A DNA stretch of 35,766 nucleotides from Candidatus Atribacteria bacterium (GTDB lineage: Bacteria > Atribacterota > Phoenicimicrobiia > Phoenicimicrobiales > Stramentimicrobiaceae): NCBI GenBank assembly GCA_029556475.1, contig JAKQEP010000137.1, positions 1 through 35,766 on the forward strand. The letters are read 5' to 3'. Position 1 is the first letter of the stretch. Each line of letters opens with the position of its first letter. Below are positions 2,281-12,405 of this stretch, piece after piece. The translations under genes and the position numbers were made by a program. The notes under the pieces are model-generated. The model saw only the letters and a program-made list of their open reading frames with translations. It was not told where the DNA came from and did no database searches.

Positions 2281-2310
2281 ATTATAGGCTGATAATTTTA
2301 ATATAGTCAA
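2281..2310 (-). promoter_or_regulatory. Probable promoter of sigH
   Basis: Minus strand -35 TTGACT (2310-2305) and -10 TATAAT (2286-2281) are separated by 18 bp. The -35 box contains the TGA stop of cysS (2309-2307), so the promoter begins inside the upstream gene. It would give sigH a leader of about 140 nt. The box match is seen directly; its activity is inferred. Confidence 0.7.
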
Positions 2311-3734
2311 GACTTTTTCCATCGTGCTCCATCGGCTGTATCTTCAATAATTACCCCCACTCCTAACAACTTTTCTCTGATCTTATCAGCGGTTTCCCAA
2401 TCTTTATACTTTCTAGCTCTTTCTCGCGCTGCAATTAAATGTCCTATTTCTGTTTCTGGTAACATCGTTTGCCGGGACAATTGTGAAGAAAATTTTAAGC
2501 CTAAAATATTTGTTCCAAATTCTTCATAGAATTGAATAACTTTATTTATTATTTCCAAATTTTTATTCTTGGTCTTATTTAAATATATATTTGTTTCTTT
2601 TGCCAGTAAAAATAAGGTGCTCAAAGCAATTGGAGTATTAAAATCATCATCCATTGCCTCAATAAATGCATCCTTCATTCTGTCAACGGTTTCAGTTAAT
2701 TTTTTACTATCCTCATCTATTTTTTTATGAATTTGTTTACTTTGAGAGAAAAAATTTAGATTGAATATTAGATTATTCAGTGTTTCTATGCTATTTTTTG
2801 ATTGTTCTATCTGTTCAATAGAATAATTCAAAGGGCTCCTATAATGGGCTGATAGTAAAAAATGCCTAATAGTCGAACCATCATATTTTTGAGACAATTC
2901 TCTTATGGTAAGAATATTTCCAATAGATTTTGACATTTTTTTATTATCTATTTTCAAATAGCCATTGTGTAACCAATATCGGGCAAATATTTTCCCACTA
3001 ACTGCTTCACTTTGTGCAATTTCATTCTCATGATGAGGGAATATTAAATCCTCCCCACCGGCATGTATATCAAAAGTATCGCCGAGATATTTGGAAGACA
3101 TCACTGAGCACTCTATATGCCAACCTGGACGCCCAAAACTCCAGGGGCTACTCCATTCAGGCTCACCTTCTTTGGATTTCTTCCAGAGAACAAAATCATA
3201 TGGATTTTTCTTTCTTTCATCTACTTCTATTCTTGCCCCAGCTTTAATTTCATCAATACTCTGTTTAGACAACTTCCCATAATCCTTAAACTTGCTAACA
3301 TCATAATAGACATCTCCATCAACAACATAGGCATAGCCTTTCTCTTGTAATCTCAAGATGAATTTAATAATGTCAGTAATATGTTCAGTTGCTCGGGGAT
3401 AGAAATCAGCTCTTCCAATATTTAAAAAATCTGCATCATAGAAATACTCTGCAATAAACCTTTCAGCTATCTTATCATATGAACTTCCCAACTCTTTTGC
3501 TTTGTTAATAACTTTATCGTCAATATCAGTAAAGTTAGACACATATGTAACTTTATATTTTTTATATTGCAGATATTTTCTTAATACTTCAAATACTAAA
3601 AATGGTCTGGCATTACCAATGTGGAAGAAGTTATAAACAGTGGGGCCACATACATACATGCCAACCTGTTTTCCATTAAGTGGAATGAATTCTTCTTTTT
3701 TTCTGGTTAGAGTATTGTATAACTTCAAACTCAA
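2307..3734 (-). CDS. cysS: Cysteinyl-tRNA synthetase
   Basis: This 475-residue class I synthetase charges tRNA-Cys. The HIGH-type motif HIGN is at residues 38-41 and KMSKS at 266-270. The zinc ligands expected for the family are visible: C29 in CGPTVY, C209 in GWHIECS, then H234 and E238 in FPHHENE. The length is normal for the family and the C-terminus is intact. The start is TTG (3734-3732), with GAGAGG about 8 nt upstream; the third codon is also TTG, leaving slight ambiguity. It sits 50 bp after yacL on the same strand and is probably cotranscribed with it, as neighbouring genes of the Bacillus cysS block are. No T-box leader is seen, and the gap is too short for one. Confidence 0.97.
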   Translation of the reverse strand: MSLKLYNTLTRKKEEFIPLNGKQVGMYVCGPTVYNFFHIGNARPFLVFEVLRKYLQYKKYKVTYVSNFTDIDDKVINKAKELGSSYDKIAERFIAEYFYDADFLNIGRADFYPRATEHITDIIKFILRLQEKGYAYVVDGDVYYDVSKFKDYGKLSKQSIDEIKAGARIEVDERKKNPYDFVLWKKSKEGEPEWSSPWSFGRPGWHIECSVMSSKYLGDTFDIHAGGEDLIFPHHENEIAQSEAVSGKIFARYWLHNGYLKIDNKKMSKSIGNILTIRELSQKYDGSTIRHFLLSAHYRSPLNYSIEQIEQSKNSIETLNNLIFNLNFFSQSKQIHKKIDEDSKKLTETVDRMKDAFIEAMDDDFNTPIALSTLFLLAKETNIYLNKTKNKNLEIINKVIQFYEEFGTNILGLKFSSQLSRQTMLPETEIGHLIAARERARKYKDWETADKIREKLLGVGVIIEDTADGARWKKS

Positions 3735-3784
3735 TGCTTTTTCCTCTCTTTTTATTACTTTGATTTTAAACTACACCTATTTTT

Positions 3785-4909
3785 TTAATTAGACCGTGTC
3801 TTCTTTTGATGGGTTGTTTCCTGATTCTTCTTATTGATTCTTTCCCTAATCCGACCAAATATCATTCTGCCCGCTGGTGTTTGCAAAATACTTGTTACCG
3901 CTACCTTAACCTTTTCGCCAATATTGTCCATCCCATTCTCAACTACAATCATTGTTCCGTCATCCAGGTAAGCGACACCTTGTCCAGATTCTTTTCCTTC
4001 CTTAATAATTTGTGTTACTAATTCTTCTCCTGGTAATATAATTGATTTTAAGGCATTTGCTAAATCGTTTATATTTAAAACCGTAACATTTTCCAATTGG
4101 GCTAATTTGTTTAGATTGTAATCATTGGTCAATATTTTGGCATCTATCTCTTTTGCTAATTTTATTAACTTGGTATCAACTGTTTTCAGCTCAGGATAGT
4201 CACGACTGATAATTTTTATTTTATTGCTGTGTAATTTATTTATCTTATTTAATACATCTAAACCCCGCCTGCCTCTATTTCTTTTTAAAGGTTCTGAAGA
4301 ATCCGCTATGGCTTGCAATTCATTTAAAACAAAACGAGGAATAATCAATACACCTTCCAAAAAATCTGTTTGAGAAATATCGGCTATTCTACCATCAATA
4401 ATGACACTGGTATCCAATATCTTCAATTGATAATGAGGGCTTTTTTCTCTTTTTTTAAATCTTTCAATATTCTTTTTATAAAAATTGACACTTTCTGTTC
4501 TTTTACTTAAACCAAGAGTAATTCCTAATAAACCTAAAGTGACATTTAATATAATTGGTAAATAATTACCAATAAAGGGGATAAAGGATAATGAATACGC
4601 TAATAAATTTGCTATTATCAATCCAACAATTAGACCTATTACTCCAGAAAGTATGTTTTGAGCAGGTATTCTTTGAAAATAGGTTATAATTTTCTTTCCT
4701 AAATAACATAATTTCTGATAACTGAGAATAAATAGAATAAATCCAAAAAAACTTCCAATAATGAATGATATGATGGGGATTAACCATCTATAATCTACAA
4801 ATAGAGAAAAGTTGTTTAACATTTTGGTGCCAGGAATGAGTTCATAACCAGATATCCCCCCTGCTAAAACAAAGACAGAACAAATAATTTTTTTGGTTAA
4901 ACCTGACAA
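3785..4909 (-). CDS. yacL: YacL-type membrane protein with PIN and TRAM domains
   Basis: The protein has an N-terminal block of four predicted membrane segments, a PIN nuclease-fold domain and a C-terminal TRAM domain. On the longer-frame numbering (start 4924) the segments lie at about residues 11-30, 47-70, 92-113 and 116-137. PIN is at about 168-292, with acidic residues in [17 protein letters not shown] and LTNDYN. TRAM is at about 300-360, including [16 protein letters not shown]. This is the standard YacL architecture beside radA; substrate and role are not established. The open frame reaches TTG 4924, but the GGAGG at 4922-4918 lies inside it and is correctly spaced for TTG 4909-4907. 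I therefore take 4909 as the start (374 residues). It has its own promoter (5032-5060). Confidence 0.93.
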
Positions 4910-5092: not shown

Positions 5093-6451
5093 TTATTCTT
5101 TAAGTATTGTTAATATATCTCCTATATTGCCCAATGTTTTTATCTCTAGATGTTCAAATTTTTTGGAAAACTGTTTACCATTCTCGAGTGGTATAATACA
5201 TTTTTTAAACCCGATATTTTTAGCCTCTCTGAGCCGCCTTTCACATAGACTTACTGTTCGTACCTCTCCGGTTAAACCTAATTCACCAAAGACAACGGTA
5301 TCCAATGGTATAGCCAAACTCTTTATACTACTTAAGATTGCTACAGCAATTCCCAAATCAATTGCTGGTTCACTTATCTTTATACCACCTGCAGAGTTGA
5401 TATATATATCTTTATTTTGTAATTGAATTTTTAATTTATTCTCCAATACTGCAATGATTAAAGAGACTCTGTTATAATCAACGCCTGTGGTAAGCCTACG
5501 AGGGAAATTCAAATAAGAAGAGCTGGTTAATGCTTCAATTTCTACGGCCAATGGCCTGCTGCCTTCAAAAGTAATAGTGGTAACTGTGCCTGGAATTGGC
5601 TCAGATCGTGAAGACAATAGAATTTTTGAAGGATTGGCGACTTCTTTTAAACCAACACTTTCCATTTGAAAAATTCCCAACTCATTGGTAGTACCAAATC
5701 TATTTTTTATACTTCGAAGAAGCCTGTAGGCCTGAAACCTTTCGCCTTCAAGATATAAAACAGTATCAACAATATGCTCAAGTATTTTTGGTCCGGCTAT
5801 TCCTCCATCTTTTGTTACGTGTCCTATTATGATCATGGCAATATCATCTTTTTTAGCTATTTCCATCAATCTGGAAGTGCAACTCTTTACTTGTGTTATA
5901 CTTCCTGGAGCAGAGGGGGTATTTGAATCATTAACAATCTGTATGGAATCAATAATCGCAATTTTTGGTTTTATCTCTTTCAACTGTGCAATTATTTTTT
6001 CCAGACCATTTTCCGATAATAGGTAGATGTGTTCAGAATTAACAGATAATCTGTCAGCTCTGAGAGAAATCTGTCTTATTGATTCTTCCGCTGAAATATA
6101 AAGGATTTTACCTATTTTATCTACTAATTGTTGCGCAATTTGTAATGCTAAAGTTGATTTCCCAATCCCTGGCTCACCCCCAATAAGAATCAGTGAACCA
6201 GGTACAATGCCTCCCCCTAAAACACGGTCAAATTCTACGATGCCAGTCTGGTACCGTAGCTCATTAATATTAAATTTTAACTTACTGATAGGTTTAGCAA
6301 GCTCGTCTTTTTGAATCTTCGCAGATATTTTATTTGAAATATCTTGTGACAAAAGAGAATTCCATGCACCGCAATTTGGACAACGACCAAACCATTGAGA
6401 TGTTTCAAAATTACACTTCTGGCAAAGATAATATTTAGTACTGTTTTTCAT
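5093..6451 (-). CDS. radA: DNA repair protein RadA (Sms)
   Basis: RadA is a RecA-like ATPase that promotes branch migration in recombinational repair. This 452-residue protein has the full family layout. A four-cysteine zinc finger lies at C10, C13, C24 and C27. Walker A GEPGIGKST is at about 92-100. The RadA-specific KNRFG motif is at 249-253, and a C-terminal Lon-protease-like domain follows from about residue 290. The start is ATG 6451-6449. The only purine-rich site, AAGGAG, lies about 20 nt upstream, farther than usual, so expression may partly depend on coupling. It lies 45 bp after clpC in the same direction, matching the clpC-radA order of Bacillus. Confidence 0.97.
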   Translation of the reverse strand: MKNSTKYYLCQKCNFETSQWFGRCPNCGAWNSLLSQDISNKISAKIQKDELAKPISKLKFNINELRYQTGIVEFDRVLGGGIVPGSLILIGGEPGIGKSTLALQIAQQLVDKIGKILYISAEESIRQISLRADRLSVNSEHIYLLSENGLEKIIAQLKEIKPKIAIIDSIQIVNDSNTPSAPGSITQVKSCTSRLMEIAKKDDIAMIIIGHVTKDGGIAGPKILEHIVDTVLYLEGERFQAYRLLRSIKNRFGTTNELGIFQMESVGLKEVANPSKILLSSRSEPIPGTVTTITFEGSRPLAVEIEALTSSSYLNFPRRLTTGVDYNRVSLIIAVLENKLKIQLQNKDIYINSAGGIKISEPAIDLGIAVAILSSIKSLAIPLDTVVFGELGLTGEVRTVSLCERRLREAKNIGFKKCIIPLENGKQFSKKFEHLEIKTLGNIGDILTILKE

Positions 6452-6496
6452 AATAAAAAGAAAGATTCTGCTCCTTTCAACAATAAATAGATAGTA

Positions 6497-8986
6497 CTAA
6501 CATTCAATCTCATCATTGTCATTATACTGTTCTTCATTTTTTTGCTTGTTCTTTAATTCTTTTTTTTCAAAAACAATGCTCTCTTTCTTTGCTCCAATTG
6601 AAATATGTTCTCCTTCTTTCAACTCACCAGAGAGAATTTTTTCAGAAATAGGATTCTCTATCAATCTTTCAATGGTTCTTCTTAAAGGTCTGGCGCCAAA
6701 GTTGGGATCATATCCTTCTTTCGCTAAAATATCCTTGGCGCTGTTACTGACAGAAAAGAATATTTTTTGTTCTGCCAACAACTCTCTTACTTCATTAAGC
6801 AATAAATCTGCAATCTGCCTTATTTCATTTTTAGTAAGGCTCTTAAAGACAATTATCTCATCAATTCTGTTCAGAAATTCTGGTCTGAATGTTTTATTTA
6901 ACTCTCCCATTACTCTATCTTTAATATCCTTATAAGACATTTGTTCCGGTTCCTGTGAACTTCTAAATCCCAAAGAAGTACCTTTTTTAATTAAGGTAGC
7001 CCCTACATTAGAAGTCATAATAATAACAGTGTTTTTAAAATCTACTACTCTGCCTTGAGCATCAGTCAATCTGCCATCCTCAAATATCTGTAATAGTATG
7101 TTAAAAACATCTGGGTGTGCCTTTTCTATCTCATCAAGCAATACTACAGAATAAGGTCTTCTTCGTACCTTCTCGGTCAATTGACCACCTTCTTCGTATC
7201 CAACATAACCAGGAGGAGCCCCAACCAATCTAGAAACAGCGAATTTTTCCATATATTCAGACATATCTAAACTGATCATGGCATTCTCATCACCAAATAG
7301 AAACTCAGCTAAACTTCTTGCTAATTCAGTTTTGCCTACACCTGTTGGACCCAAGAAAACAAAAGAACCAATAGGCCTTTTGGGATCCTTCATTCCGGCT
7401 CTAGCTCTACGAACAGCCCTTGATATTGCTTTTATAGCTTCATCCTGTCCGATAATCCGTTTATGTAAATCATCTTCCATCCTGATCAGTTTTTTTGCTT
7501 CCTCCTCTTTCAGAGAATATACCGGTACTCCACTCCAACTGGAAACTACCTCAGCCACATCTTCTACGGTAACTTCTATTTTATCCTTTGTTTTTCCAAT
7601 TTCCCACTCTTTTTTAATCTCATTATACTTCTCTTCATACTTTCTTTCCTTATCTCTTAATTTAGCAGCTTTTTCAAATTGTTGTAACTTTACAGCAGTC
7701 TCCTTTTCTTTTCTTATTTTTAACAACTCTTCTTCAACGTCTTTTACATCTGGCGGGAAAACGGTGTTTTTCAATTTTACCCGAGAAGATGCTTCATCAA
7801 TAACGTCTATTGCTTTATCCGGTAAAAACCGACCGGAAACGTATCTTGCTGCCAATTTCACGGCTGATACTAAAGCCTCATCAGTAATAGTTAATTTGTG
7901 ATGAGCTTCATACCTATCTCTTAATCCTCTGAGTATTTGAATGGCTTCATCAATGGTAGGTTCGGGAACATTGATAGGCTGAAAACGCCTTTCAAGTGCT
8001 TTATCTTTTTCAATATATTTTCTGTATTCATCTGTGGTTGTTGCTCCAATGGTCTGTATTTCGCCCCGGGCCAAAGCAGGTTTTAATATATTAGACGCAT
8101 CTATAGCGCCTTCTGCCGCTCCAGCACCCACAAGCGTATGAAATTCATCGATAAAAAGAATTATGTCATTCGAATTTTCCACCTCTTTAACTATTTTTTT
8201 GAGCCGTTTTTCGAACTCACCCCTGTATTTGGTACCAGCGACAATTAAAGCAAGGTCAAGTGAGATTATTCTCTTATTTTTTAAAATTTCTGGAACATCA
8301 TTAGCGGCAATTTTTTGCGCCAACCCCTCTACAATAGCTGTTTTTCCAACACCAGCCTCACCAATTAAACAGGGATTATTTTTCTTTCTCCTGCTTAATA
8401 TTTGAATTACTCTTTGGATTTCACAATTTCTCCCAACCACAGGGTCTAACTTTTCCTCTCTGGCTAATTCCGTTAAATCTCTTCCGAATTCATCCAATGT
8501 TGGAACTTTGCTTTCTTTTCTAATAACACCACCAGGGGCATCAGGACTATCACTTTCCATTAAAAGGCTTAGTATCCTGGAATAAATACCTTCTAAATCT
8601 AATCCCATTTGAGTTAAAATTCGGGTTGCAACACCGCTACCTTCTTTGATTAGCCCTAAGAGTAAATGTTCGGTACCAATATAGTTTTGACCCAATCTAC
8701 TGGCTTCTTGAGATGCTAACTCTAATACTTTTTTAGCCCTTGGAGTAAAGGTAATCTCACTTACTTCCTGATATTCTCCTCTTCCTACTATTTTCTCAAT
8801 CTCTTCTACAATTCTTTCCGGTTCGACACCCAGTTCACGTAAGATTTTGCTGGCAATCCCATCGTTTTCTTTAACCAAACCAACTAAAATATGCTCAGTC
8901 CCAATATAATTATGATTAAGATTCACAGCTTCCTCCTGTGCTATCATAATCACTTTTCTAACTTTTTCAGTATATCGTTTAAACAT
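6497..8986 (-). CDS. clpC: ATP-dependent Clp protease ATPase subunit ClpC
   Basis: This 829-residue Hsp100 unfoldase of the ClpC type feeds substrates to ClpP. Two N-terminal Clp repeats (about 1-145) contain [10 protein letters not shown] and [13 protein letters not shown]-1 carries Walker A GEAGVGKT (209-216) and a Walker B FIDEFH. The UVR-bearing middle domain is near 436-450. AAA-2 carries GPTGVGKT (546-553), [14 protein letters not shown] and LLDEIEKAH. An LGF [12 protein letters not shown] 672-674 is the expected ClpP-docking loop. The start is ATG 8986 with AAGGA upstream. It follows mcsA-mcsB; in Bacillus, McsA/McsB mark substrates with phosphoarginine for ClpC, and the linkage here suggests the same partnership. 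Confidence 0.98.
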
Positions 8987-9061
8987 TTGATATCCTTCCC
9001 AATTTTTTATTTAAAATTATTTTCTTAAATAATTTTCATTAAGAAAAGTATTTATCTCAAT

Positions 9062-10129
9062 TTAGTATAGCAATCCTTGAACTAATTTGGCTCTGGTCGA
9101 ATCCCGTTCATTTTCATCCATTATTTTACAATTCAGCAATTGAATATATGCTGATTGTATGATTAACATCAATCGGTTAATCGTATCATAGCCAATTTTA
9201 GTAAAAATGCCTAATCCAATCCCAAATCTAATTTTTGACAATAAGTCGATTGCTTCTATTGTAGAAATGATTCTGGCATTTATTAAAACTCCGTATGCCC
9301 GCATAACTTGATCTTCTACTCTCTGTCTGGAATACAATATTAACTCTTCTCGTGCTTTTTCTTCTTCCACAATCAATTGATTTATTACTACTTTTAATTT
9401 ATTAATTATTTCTTCCTCGCTTAAACCCAGTGTTACCTGATTGGAAATTTGAAACAAATTGCCTTGAAAACCTGTTCCTTCTCCGTAGAATCCTCTCACT
9501 GCATAACCCATCTTGGAAATTGATGACATTAAATCATTCAATTTATTAATAATAGATAATCCGGGCAGATGCAACATTACGGAAGCTCTCAAGCCAGTAC
9601 CAACATTGGTTGGACAACAGGTTAAAAAACCTTCCTTCTCATTAAAAGAGTATTCTATTTCATTCATAATTTGATTATCAAAGCAGTTAATAATTTCCCA
9701 AACTTTTTCTAATTGGAAACCAGCCATTAAACATTGTATTCTAAAATGATCCTCCTCATTGATCATAATGCTAATTGTTTCATCGGGTTTATAAATAAAG
9801 GCTCGATGGGGATATTTTGATTGGGCTAAAGAAAAACTGATTAATCGTTTTTCAGCTAAAAATTGCACCTCTATATCGGTCAAGTCATCAATTTTAATTA
9901 TTTTAAAATCGTTAAACAGCTTTTTCTTTTTTATCAGAATCTCACCTTTATTCAGTACCTGCTCTAACTGTCTCTCATTGGCCTTAGATGGAAAGGGAAT
10001 ACCCTCGATGTTTCGAGCTAAACGTATTCTGGTACTAACAACTATGTGATTTAAAGGACCATCCCCTTTAATCCATTGAGCACTAGAATCCCTTAATTCA
10101 CGTATTAGCAAGGCTTCTTTATTACTCAT
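9062..10129 (-). CDS. mcsB: Protein arginine kinase McsB
   Basis: McsB is a guanido-phosphotransferase-fold kinase that phosphorylates arginines on proteins, marking them for ClpC-ClpP. The 355 residues include STRIRLARN (32-40), NEEDHFRIQ (about 124-132), and CCPTNVGTGLRAS (171-183), which holds the family's conserved active-site cysteine. The C-terminal RDSTRA (342-347) matches the RDxxRA phosphoarginine-sensing motif that separates McsB from creatine and arginine kinases. The start ATG (10129-10127) overlaps the end of mcsA by 8 bp, indicating translational coupling. No loss of a key residue is seen, so an active kinase is expected. Confidence 0.97.
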   Translation of the reverse strand: MSNKEALLIRELRDSSAQWIKGDGPLNHIVVSTRIRLARNIEGIPFPSKANERQLEQVLNKGEILIKKKKLFNDFKIIKIDDLTDIEVQFLAEKRLISFSLAQSKYPHRAFIYKPDETISIMINEEDHFRIQCLMAGFQLEKVWEIINCFDNQIMNEIEYSFNEKEGFLTCCPTNVGTGLRASVMLHLPGLSIINKLNDLMSSISKMGYAVRGFYGEGTGFQGNLFQISNQVTLGLSEEEIINKLKVVINQLIVEEEKAREELILYSRQRVEDQVMRAYGVLINARIISTIEAIDLLSKIRFGIGLGIFTKIGYDTINRLMLIIQSAYIQLLNCKIMDENERDSTRAKLVQGLLY

Positions 10130-10664
10130 TATTCACCTTTTTTAATCTTTTTTCTTCTTTAATAATCATATCTCTCAATTCGGCAGCTTTTTCATATTCT
10201 TCTTTTCTAATTGACTCTTCCATCTCATCCTTAATCTCTTTTATCCTTTTCATCCTATTGCACTTTTCTTTGATATTGAGCGGAACTTTGCCGGTATGCT
10301 TTGAATGACCATGCAGATTATCCAAAAGAGGTTTTAACCGTTCTCTAAAATACTCATAACAATGCCTACAGCCCAGTTTCCCTGATTGTGTAAATTCCTG
10401 GTAATCCATTCCACAATCTGAACATTTCAATCTCTCGTTTAAACCAGTTATATTTTTACCTTGACCATACTTTCCAACTGGGTTTAACAAATTTTCTAAT
10501 ATCTCATTTATATTGTATTGAGAAAATGAAAAAGAAGAAACTGCACTTCCCAAAAGGTGGTGAGCACAATGGCTACAAACATACAATTCCTTTCTATTTG
10601 ACTCCATATCCTTTATTATTATTACAGTTGCCTCATTTTTTTTACATATTTGGCAAATCATCAT
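10122..10664 (-). CDS. mcsA: McsA, zinc-finger activator of McsB
   Basis: The protein has 180 residues with four CxxC pairs at 4-7, 30-33, 81-84 and 99-102, the arrangement of McsA. A C-terminal UVR motif lies at about 146-173 (EEYEKAAELRDMI). In Bacillus, McsA binds and activates McsB and is sensitive to metals and thiol stress. Two consecutive ATGs (10664 and 10661) can serve as the start, with AAGG just upstream. The gene overlaps mcsB by 8 bp and lies 62 bp after the CsoR-family gene. In Bacillus the preceding gene is ctsR, the arginine-phosphorylation-sensitive repressor; no ctsR is present here. Confidence 0.95.
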   Translation of the reverse strand: MMICQICKKNEATVIIIKDMESNRKELYVCSHCAHHLLGSAVSSFSFSQYNINEILENLLNPVGKYGQGKNITGLNERLKCSDCGMDYQEFTQSGKLGCRHCYEYFRERLKPLLDNLHGHSKHTGKVPLNIKEKCNRMKRIKEIKDEMEESIRKEEYEKAAELRDMIIKEEKRLKKVNNE

Positions 10665-10726
10665 TTTAACCTTATTATAAAGAATTTAATTTTTTTAGTT
10701 ACAATCTGCAGATAAATCTAGATAAC

Positions 10727-10999
10727 TTATCTAAGAAATTTAATAATAAGTTCAATTATTTCATCTAATGAATTCTGATATAAATAAATATTTTCAGAAG
10801 AGTTAAAACAGGAATACACTTTCTCCTCCAGTAATAATTTATTTATTCTATTTAAGGCAGATTTTACAGCAGAAACTTGGGTCAGAATATCTGCATAAGA
10901 TCGATTATCTGCAATCATAGTCTGAATTCCCCTAATCTGCCCTTCTATCTTCTTTAGACGGTGCAAAATCTTTATTTTATTTATTTCCTCAATTTCCAT
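10727..10999 (-). CDS. CsoR/RcnR-family transcriptional repressor lacking canonical copper ligands
   Basis: This 90-residue all-helical repressor of the CsoR/RcnR/FrmR (DUF156) family is recognised by HRLKKIEGQIRGIQTMI (about 13-29), SYADILTQVSAVKSALNRIN and the helical tail. Aligned by eye to Mycobacterium CsoR (ligands C36, H61, C65) with an offset of one, the positions are Y35, K60 and C64. Two of three copper ligands are therefore replaced and a single cysteine remains. This also does not match the two-cysteine CstR pattern. The gene heads the mcsA-mcsB-clpC run, where Bacillus has ctsR. A CsoR-like palindrome overlaps its promoter, indicating autoregulation. The inducer is unknown, and no copper ATPase or chaperone is nearby. 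Confidence 0.88.
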   Translation of the reverse strand: MEIEEINKIKILHRLKKIEGQIRGIQTMIADNRSYADILTQVSAVKSALNRINKLLLEEKVYSCFNSSENIYLYQNSLDEIIELIIKFLR

Positions 11000-11020
11000 T
11001 CATATTTCCTTGTATTTTGT

Positions 11021-11037
11021 ATACCCCCCTAGGGTAT
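11021..11037. promoter_or_regulatory. CsoR-type operator palindrome
   Basis: ATACCC-CCCTA-GGGTAT is an inverted repeat of 6-bp arms around a GC-rich centre, resembling known CsoR operators. It lies 22 bp before the CsoR-family start codon and covers the predicted transcription start of the promoter at 11042-11069. A bound repressor would block that start. The pattern is seen directly; binding is inferred. Confidence 0.8.
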
Positions 11038-11041
11038 TAAT

Positions 11042-11069
11042 ATTATAACTCTAAATAACATTTTGTCAA
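11042..11069 (-). promoter_or_regulatory. Promoter of the csoR-like/mcsA/mcsB/clpC transcript
   Basis: Minus strand TTGACA (11069-11064) and TATAAT (11047-11042) are both perfect consensus boxes, with a 16-bp spacer. It is the only strong promoter I see before mcsA, and it lies downstream of the pgk terminator, so it probably drives the repressor and the Clp genes together. Confidence 0.8.
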
Positions 11070-11103
11070 CAGTCTGATATGATTTACAAGACAAAATTGT
11101 GAC

Positions 11104-11131
11104 AAAAAAAGACAGACTGAAAGCCTGTCTT
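11104..11131 (-). terminator. Intrinsic terminator after pgk
   Basis: On the minus strand a 9-bp stem AAGACAGGC/GTCTGTCTT (one G-U pair) with a 5-nt loop runs straight into a tract of seven T residues. It lies about 60 bp past the pgk stop and ends the pgk transcript ahead of the CsoR promoter. Confidence 0.85.
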
Positions 11132-11193
11132 AAAAGAAGAAATAGATCTATGTTGTCAATTGTTATAATAGTTCCAAAAAAAACTGTTTCTTT

Positions 11194-12405
11194 TTATTTT
11201 CTTAGTATTTCAACTCCAGGGAGTTTCTTGCCTGCTACATATTCCATTGATGCTCCCCCACCTGTTGATAAATGTGAAAATTTATTATTAAGCCCAAGTT
11301 TATTAATGGCAGCAATGGAGTCTCCACCCCCAACAACAGAAAAAACCTTTCCATATAAACTGGCAATATGTCGGGCGATTTCATTGGTTCCTTTAGCAAA
11401 TTTATCCATCTCAAAAACACCTAAAGGACCATTCCAAAATATTTTTTTAGAACTGCTGATTATTTTTTTAAATAAACCTATAGTCTTAGAACCAATATCC
11501 ATACCAATCATATTATTATCAATTTCTTCTATGGATACATTAAAGCTGTCTGCATCTTCAGAAAATTCATAGGTTGCACGAACATCTTCTGGAATTACAA
11601 TTTCTTTGCCCATTATTTTTGCTTTCTTCAATAATTCTCTACAAAACTTGATTTGGCTTTCTTCGAAAATTGATTTGCCAATTTCCAATCCTTGTGCAGC
11701 AAAAAAGGTATAAGCCATACCACCACCTATTAATACTTTATCGCTAATTTCAGTTAATCTATCAAGTATTTCTATCTTGCTGCTTATTTTTGCTCCACCA
11801 ATAATAGATATAAAAGGTTTATCAGAATTGAATATTAATTTATCTAACGATCTAATTTCCTGTGCCATTAAAAACCCGGCATAGGAGGATAAATACGAGG
11901 TAATCCCAACTGTAGAGGCGTGTGCTCTGTGTGCTGCGCCGAAAGCATCATCGACATAGATATCTGCCAAAGAAGCCAATTGTTGGGAAAAAACAGGATC
12001 ATTATTTTCTTCTTCTTTATGGAAGCGTAAATTTTCCAATAAAACAATATCTCCTGGGACGAGCTTAGCAACCATTTTTGTAACATATTCCCCAATGCAA
12101 TCATCTAATTTAATTACTTTCCTGTGAATAATCTTTTCTAAACAAAGAGCCACTGGATCCATCCTCAATTTTTCTACAATCTTTCCTTTAGGCCTACCCA
12201 GGTGACTCATTAATATTACTATGCAATTATGTGATAATAAGTATTCTATCGTATCTAAAGCAGCTCTGACTCTGGTATCATCATTAACCTGTAAATCCTC
12301 ACTCAATGGTACATTAAAATCAACTCGTACCAACACTCTCTTTTCTTCTATTTCATCTTTCTTTAAATCTCCTAATAAGGATAAAGGTTTGCCTTTCTCT
12401 ATCAT
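11194..12405 (-). CDS. pgk: Phosphoglycerate kinase
   Basis: Phosphoglycerate kinase makes ATP from 1,3-bisphosphoglycerate in glycolysis. Visible motifs include RVDFNVPL near the N-terminus, SHLGRPKGK, GGAKISSKI, GGGMAYTF, the nucleotide-site loop WNGPLGVFE and the C-terminal VVGGGDSIAA...STGGGASMEY. The frame extends up to ATG 12420, but that codon has no ribosome binding site. GGAGAG (12416-12411) sits 5 nt before ATG 12405-12403, so I start there (403 residues). The gene is not with gap, tpiA or pgm as often seen. It is followed by an intrinsic terminator, so it ends its transcript. No convincing promoter is seen directly upstream. Confidence 0.97.
   Translation of the reverse strand: MIEKGKPLSLLGDLKKDEIEEKRVLVRVDFNVPLSEDLQVNDDTRVRAALDTIEYLLSHNCIVILMSHLGRPKGKIVEKLRMDPVALCLEKIIHRKVIKLDDCIGEYVTKMVAKLVPGDIVLLENLRFHKEEENNDPVFSQQLASLADIYVDDAFGAAHRAHASTVGITSYLSSYAGFLMAQEIRSLDKLIFNSDKPFISIIGGAKISSKIEILDRLTEISDKVLIGGGMAYTFFAAQGLEIGKSIFEESQIKFCRELLKKAKIMGKEIVIPEDVRATYEFSEDADSFNVSIEEIDNNMIGMDIGSKTIGLFKKIISSSKKIFWNGPLGVFEMDKFAKGTNEIARHIASLYGKVFSVVGGGDSIAAINKLGLNNKFSHLSTGGGASMEYVAGKKLPGVEILRK

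Follow-up and report, generated by a model that had tools for sequence, protein, structure and literature searches.

The textbook regulator of the arginine-kinase and ClpC genes is CtsR. The Bacillus operon reads ctsR-mcsA-mcsB-clpC-radA, and CtsR is itself marked by McsB or removed by ClpC. The CsoR/RcnR family contains the CsoR Cu(I) sensor as well as FrmR, its formaldehyde member, and CstR, its persulfide member. Literature searches, with most subscription journals outside their scope, found no published record of a csoR-mcsA-mcsB-clpC linkage.

We analysed a stretch of 35,766 nucleotides (hereafter the window; contig JAKQEP010000137.1) from a Candidatus Atribacteria MAG of 2.03 Mb that is 84% complete. 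The locus has the same mcsA-mcsB-clpC-radA order, with a repressor gene and operator first, as the ctsR operon of Bacillus and of the sister Atribacterota families, but the window's order has a CsoR-family repressor and a TAC-N9-GTA site with a G-tract instead of the GTCAAA-type repeat. Its repressor is of the same family by sequence as the CsoR Cu(I) sensor (structures 4m1p, 7mq1, 2hh7) and has a type-2 operator at its promoter; here, however, it stands before proteostasis genes and not a copper exporter, and the metal triad is incomplete in 14 of the order's 18 members.

Organisation of the locus

The features of interest are all on the minus strand of the window. After pgk and a hairpin that has a T run come a sigma-70-type promoter, a 17-bp palindrome and a csoR-like gene, followed by mcsA, mcsB, clpC and radA:

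11109..11131, minus strand: terminator-like hairpin in the pgk/csoR gap, upstream of the csoR promoter
11042..11069, minus strand: P1, promoter of csoR, TTGACA-16-TATAAT, 12/12 consensus match
11021..11037, minus strand: predicted CsoR-type operator ATACCCTAGGGGGGTAT, TAC-N9-GTA, type 2, covering the expected start site (motif scan)
10727..10999, minus strand: CsoR/RcnR (DUF156) regulator, 90 aa (PF02583, 84.4 bits, cut-off 22.8)
10122..10664, minus strand: mcsA, activator of protein-arginine kinase (NF053706, 139 bits, below the cut-off of 210)
9062..10129, minus strand: mcsB, protein-arginine kinase (NF002194, 411 bits, above the cut-off of 385)
6497..8986, minus strand: clpC (domains Clp_N, AAA_2, UVR, ClpB_D2-small)
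5093..6451, minus strand: radA, the last gene common to both operon types (TIGR00416, 570 bits)

It is thus confirmed that a csoR-like gene heads mcsA-mcsB-clpC-radA in the window. An earlier note, made from the sequence alone, had put such a gene in the slot that ctsR holds in Bacillus, behind a perfect -35/-10 promoter and with an operator over the start site. Its coordinates were correct and all three features are borne out, the operator in its position, with binding as a prediction. The protein-arginine kinase, its activator and ClpC share one gene cluster, in which McsA, under its NCBIfam cut-off, has all four Cys-x-x-Cys motifs and aligns to 8wtb_B across 178 residues, McsB matches 8wtb_A with an E value of 1.9e-85, and clpC is 61-63% identical to the clpC of sister-family operons.

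P1 is the sole 12/12 promoter match within 6400-11250. The operator begins 4 bp past its -10, and the palindrome is the single such site in the window at three mismatches or fewer, with 0.06 expected by chance; according to PMC3902906, 5'-TACX9GTA-3' with G-tracts is the type-2 CsoR operator. The hairpin at 11109..11131 is weak evidence alone, as two terminator-like sites were seen in the region and 2.4 were expected from shuffles.

Distribution in the order and conservation of the operator

Our sample of the order comprised 24 genomes: the window's own and others of the same genus, family and order. A PF02583 match was found in 18 of them, and all 18 genes lie directly before mcsA-mcsB, so that the linkage described in the earlier note holds in every csoR-bearing genome of the order and spans two of its families. 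Of the 17 loci read downstream, 16 continue with clpC and radA (the window, L310-L318, L320, L322 and L031-L034, the last four from Atribacterota relatives carrying the same operon); in the seventeenth, L321 (G017), the contig stops within mcsB. Six genomes have no csoR: four of these also have no mcsB (G005, G009, G012 and G023, 63-90% complete), and in G014 the contig stops just beyond mcsA. In a weakly resolved tree from 106 columns, the order's csoR sequences group as a single clade (support 97). Between the window and G003, csoR has a dN of 0.064 and a dS of 1.18, a dN/dS of about 0.05, which shows that the gene is under purifying selection.

In the sixth genome without an intact csoR, at locus L176 (G007:C47:30500-39000), numerous frame changes at about 2300-4000 disrupt csoR, mcsA and the first part of mcsB, and pgk, clpC and radA are open. 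This is either joint decay of the operon head or a poor stretch of assembly, and we count it against our preferred explanation.

All 18 csoR heads have a promoter scoring 11 or 12 of 12 at the position of P1 and, at that promoter, the type-2 motif TACX9GTA within the operator consensus ATACCC-N5-GGGTAT (G001 starts with C). The spacing from -10 to operator is 4 bp in 17 heads and 1 bp in G004. In the window's family the middle of the operator is TAGGG (TGGGG in G006), and the whole operator is identical in five of seven members and one base off in the remaining two; in the order's other family the middle has the reverse orientation, e.g. CCATA.

The exact pattern TACCC-N5-GGGTA occurs at 43 sites in 21 of the 24 genomes. 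Of these sites 18 belong to csoR heads, and the 25 that lie away from csoR do not exceed the 27 matches of a control pattern in the same 24 genomes. We inspected five of the 25, namely two from G000 and single sites from G009, G016 and G001, and none lies at a promoter; named by eye, they fall in deacetylase-like, pyrG-like and ftsA-like frames, in an RNase P RNA lookalike and in a gap between convergent frames. Since the extra sites are about as common as the control and the five inspected are not promoter-located, the promoter of csoR itself is the one predicted target that recurs. A copper regulon was rejected on the same two grounds.

CtsR in the sister families and outside the phylum

CtsR (PF05848) was found over cut-off in none of the order's 24 genomes, the window's 84% complete MAG included, so that the ctsR gene which the earlier note took to be displaced was not found elsewhere in the genome; it was over cut-off in 24 of 26 genomes from the rest of the phylum. 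As a control, the model matched L. lactis and these 24 sister genomes, and missed B. subtilis. All eight sister operons read as far as radA (L333-L339, L184) are ctsR-mcsA-mcsB-clpC-radA, and 10 of 10 sister loci have a CtsR-box-like repeat (at most three mismatches) around the start of ctsR. The same loose scan in the order gave hits before or at csoR in 2 of 18 loci and between csoR and mcsA in 4 of 18, in positions that differ from one another. CtsR-type and CsoR-type heads therefore differ in gene and operator together within one phylum. The clade-wide swap is real: in the place of CtsR, all csoR-bearing genomes of the window's order have a CsoR-family gene and an operator of its own.

CtsR boxes were also sought elsewhere, as the earlier note had suggested. 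The exact pattern RGTCAAA-N3-RGTCAAA, built like the loose scan on the CtsR box, has 7 sites in the order's 24 genomes and 15 in the 26 others; a ClpC homologue lies at none of these 22 loci in the 50 genomes. The exact pattern separates the order poorly from the rest, and it was dropped as a group marker; the loose scan around the start of ctsR does tell the two apart.

Outside the phylum, 103 mcsB loci (L185-L287), drawn from 124 genomes with a kinase match, had CsoR in 0 of 103 and CtsR in 4 of 103 within the stretch opened, where a distant CtsR may have been missed because the model used there was built on Atribacterota sequences. The gene before mcsA is often an aminotransferase of class IV or a LolD-like ABC ATPase (by eye, one of each checked with Pfam); such loci have mcsA-mcsB with no regulator gene at the head, and the arginine kinase is widespread there without an adjacent CtsR. 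At L190 (G178:C1:210866-215662) no mcsA was seen, and an Rrf2-family gene (PF02082, 35 bits over the first 60 residues) precedes mcsB, perhaps another regulator at an operon head.

HrcA is present in 21 of the order's 24 genomes, but its control of the operon was rejected, as a search of the 18 genomes for a site like CIRCE, at four mismatches or fewer, gave no hit at P1 or between csoR and mcsA. The phylum has two unlike kinds of McsB, scoring 204-242 bits against PF00217 in the window's order and about 85-130 in the ctsR-bearing families, and a quick tree put the order's mcsB apart from that of other Atribacterota. A separate origin of mcsB is nevertheless not claimed: in a 50-row set the best tree that keeps the two together had an advantage of 15 log units (p-AU 0.79). 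The simplest story, to judge by the gene order that both operon types share, is that the regulator was replaced once at the head of a retained operon.

A second promoter before mcsA

We consider it probable, at about two chances in three, that the CsoR-like protein is a dedicated, autoregulated repressor that has replaced CtsR and would control the operon in whole or in part. This explanation rests on the linkage, the conserved operator, the absence of CtsR, the single csoR clade, purifying selection and the decay of the metal site. The alternative that survives best is that csoR is an autoregulated single gene, a promoter in the gap drives mcsA-mcsB-clpC, and the linkage is without regulatory consequence for clpC. 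Ten of the 18 genomes do have a perfect TTGACA-18-TATAAT before mcsA with no operator there. They comprise two of the seven genomes in the window's family and eight of the eleven in the other, and in each case at most 1 of 200 shuffles equalled the score. In these ten, control of clpC by the CsoR-like protein would therefore be at most partial. This second promoter is the strongest result against the earlier note's interpretation, in which the csoR promoter serves the kinase and unfoldase genes, but the window is exempt: its 62-bp csoR-mcsA gap has no good promoter, the best scoring 9/12, a value reached by 35 of 200 shuffles.

Such a promoter is likewise missing from the seven other genomes, in two of which the gap (29 nt in G008, 22 nt in G002) is too short, so that transcription of mcsA there must start at the csoR promoter or within csoR itself. 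The gap has no terminator-like site in 17 of 18 genomes and a weak one in the other, the linkage has been kept across two families, and no other target promoter was found for the operator. On this balance the single-gene alternative appears unlikely, at roughly one chance in five, and it is probable, as judged from these motifs, that the CsoR-like protein controls clpC in the window and its close kin.

The sensor site of the CsoR-like protein

Where the copper sensor has the triad Cys36-His61-Cys65, the window's protein, aligned to 4m1p, has Tyr35, Lys60 and Cys64 at the corresponding positions. Among the order's 18 proteins, Cys35 is present in 17, His60 in 10, Cys64 in 10 and the full triad in 4; a comparison set of 88 further homologues, selected for similarity or kinship, has the full triad in 75 and Cys35 in 85. 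All seven members of the window's family have Lys at position 60. Cys35 (Cys36 of CsoR) is conserved across all DUF156 proteins according to PMC5016687, and its absence from the window's protein is counted against our preferred explanation; codon 35 is TAT in the window and TGT in G003, and since these differ by one base Tyr35 may be a consensus error. As it reads, the window's protein is a DUF156 member by profile, but its predicted site is not that of a Cys35 sensor. The alignment shows that the putative metal-binding site of the order's repressor has been largely lost.

The earlier note had proposed induction by a chemical or metal signal. The metal half fares badly, since the triad is full in 4 of 18 only and the window's protein has no Cys35, so that a copper signal, and a metal signal for the operon generally, would be unlikely. 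A chemical signal through Cys35 is possible in 17 of the 18 members, although in the window's protein it could not act by that residue. As in FrmR and CstR, Cys35 could permit thiol chemistry in these 17; a second Cys, at 64, is found in 10 of 18, and the Met-Pro start of FrmR is matched, by eye, by G006 alone.

One might also speculate, as a rather improbable alternative, that a ligand sensor has turned into a reporter of protein damage, its metal and thiol site having decayed and its release now coming about through marking by McsB or removal by ClpC. On that view the change would be complete in the window's member, which has no Cys35 but is still under purifying selection.

An ordinary copper-sensing CsoR, with the protein-quality genes as part of a copper response, is very unlikely. 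A CsoR-type operator, the full Cys-His-Cys in 4 of 18 members and a copper-type ATPase over cut-off in the window's genome would fit it, but the window's family has Lys60 throughout (7 of 7), Cys64 is gone in 8 of 18 and Cys35 is absent in the window; moreover, the three exact operator sites of that genome lie on contigs C105, C142 and C150, and the ATPase lies on C14, which has none. Equally improbable is a decaying head, with the window's CsoR a constitutive or dying repressor, as Tyr35 in the window and the broken head in G007 might suggest, against which stand the dN/dS of about 0.05 and the near-identity of the operator within the window's family.

A model for control of the operon and its significance

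In the explanation we prefer, the CsoR-like protein would bind the operator over the csoR start and block P1, thereby repressing its own gene and also, as transcripts would read through, those of the kinase and unfoldase. When it no longer binds the operator, expression of the operon would rise. In relatives with the second promoter, a CsoR-governed P1 would only add to a basal level. The releasing signal may perhaps be thiol chemistry at Cys35, kept in 17 of 18 members.

An entire order thus retains the operon, but with a repressor and a DNA site of an unrelated family. Whether heat acts on the operon at all in these bacteria becomes testable, as does the nature of the signal detected by a CsoR-family protein that has lost its metal site. 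With ctsR and csoR families in one phylum, the Atribacterota offer a natural pair for studying the replacement of a regulator.
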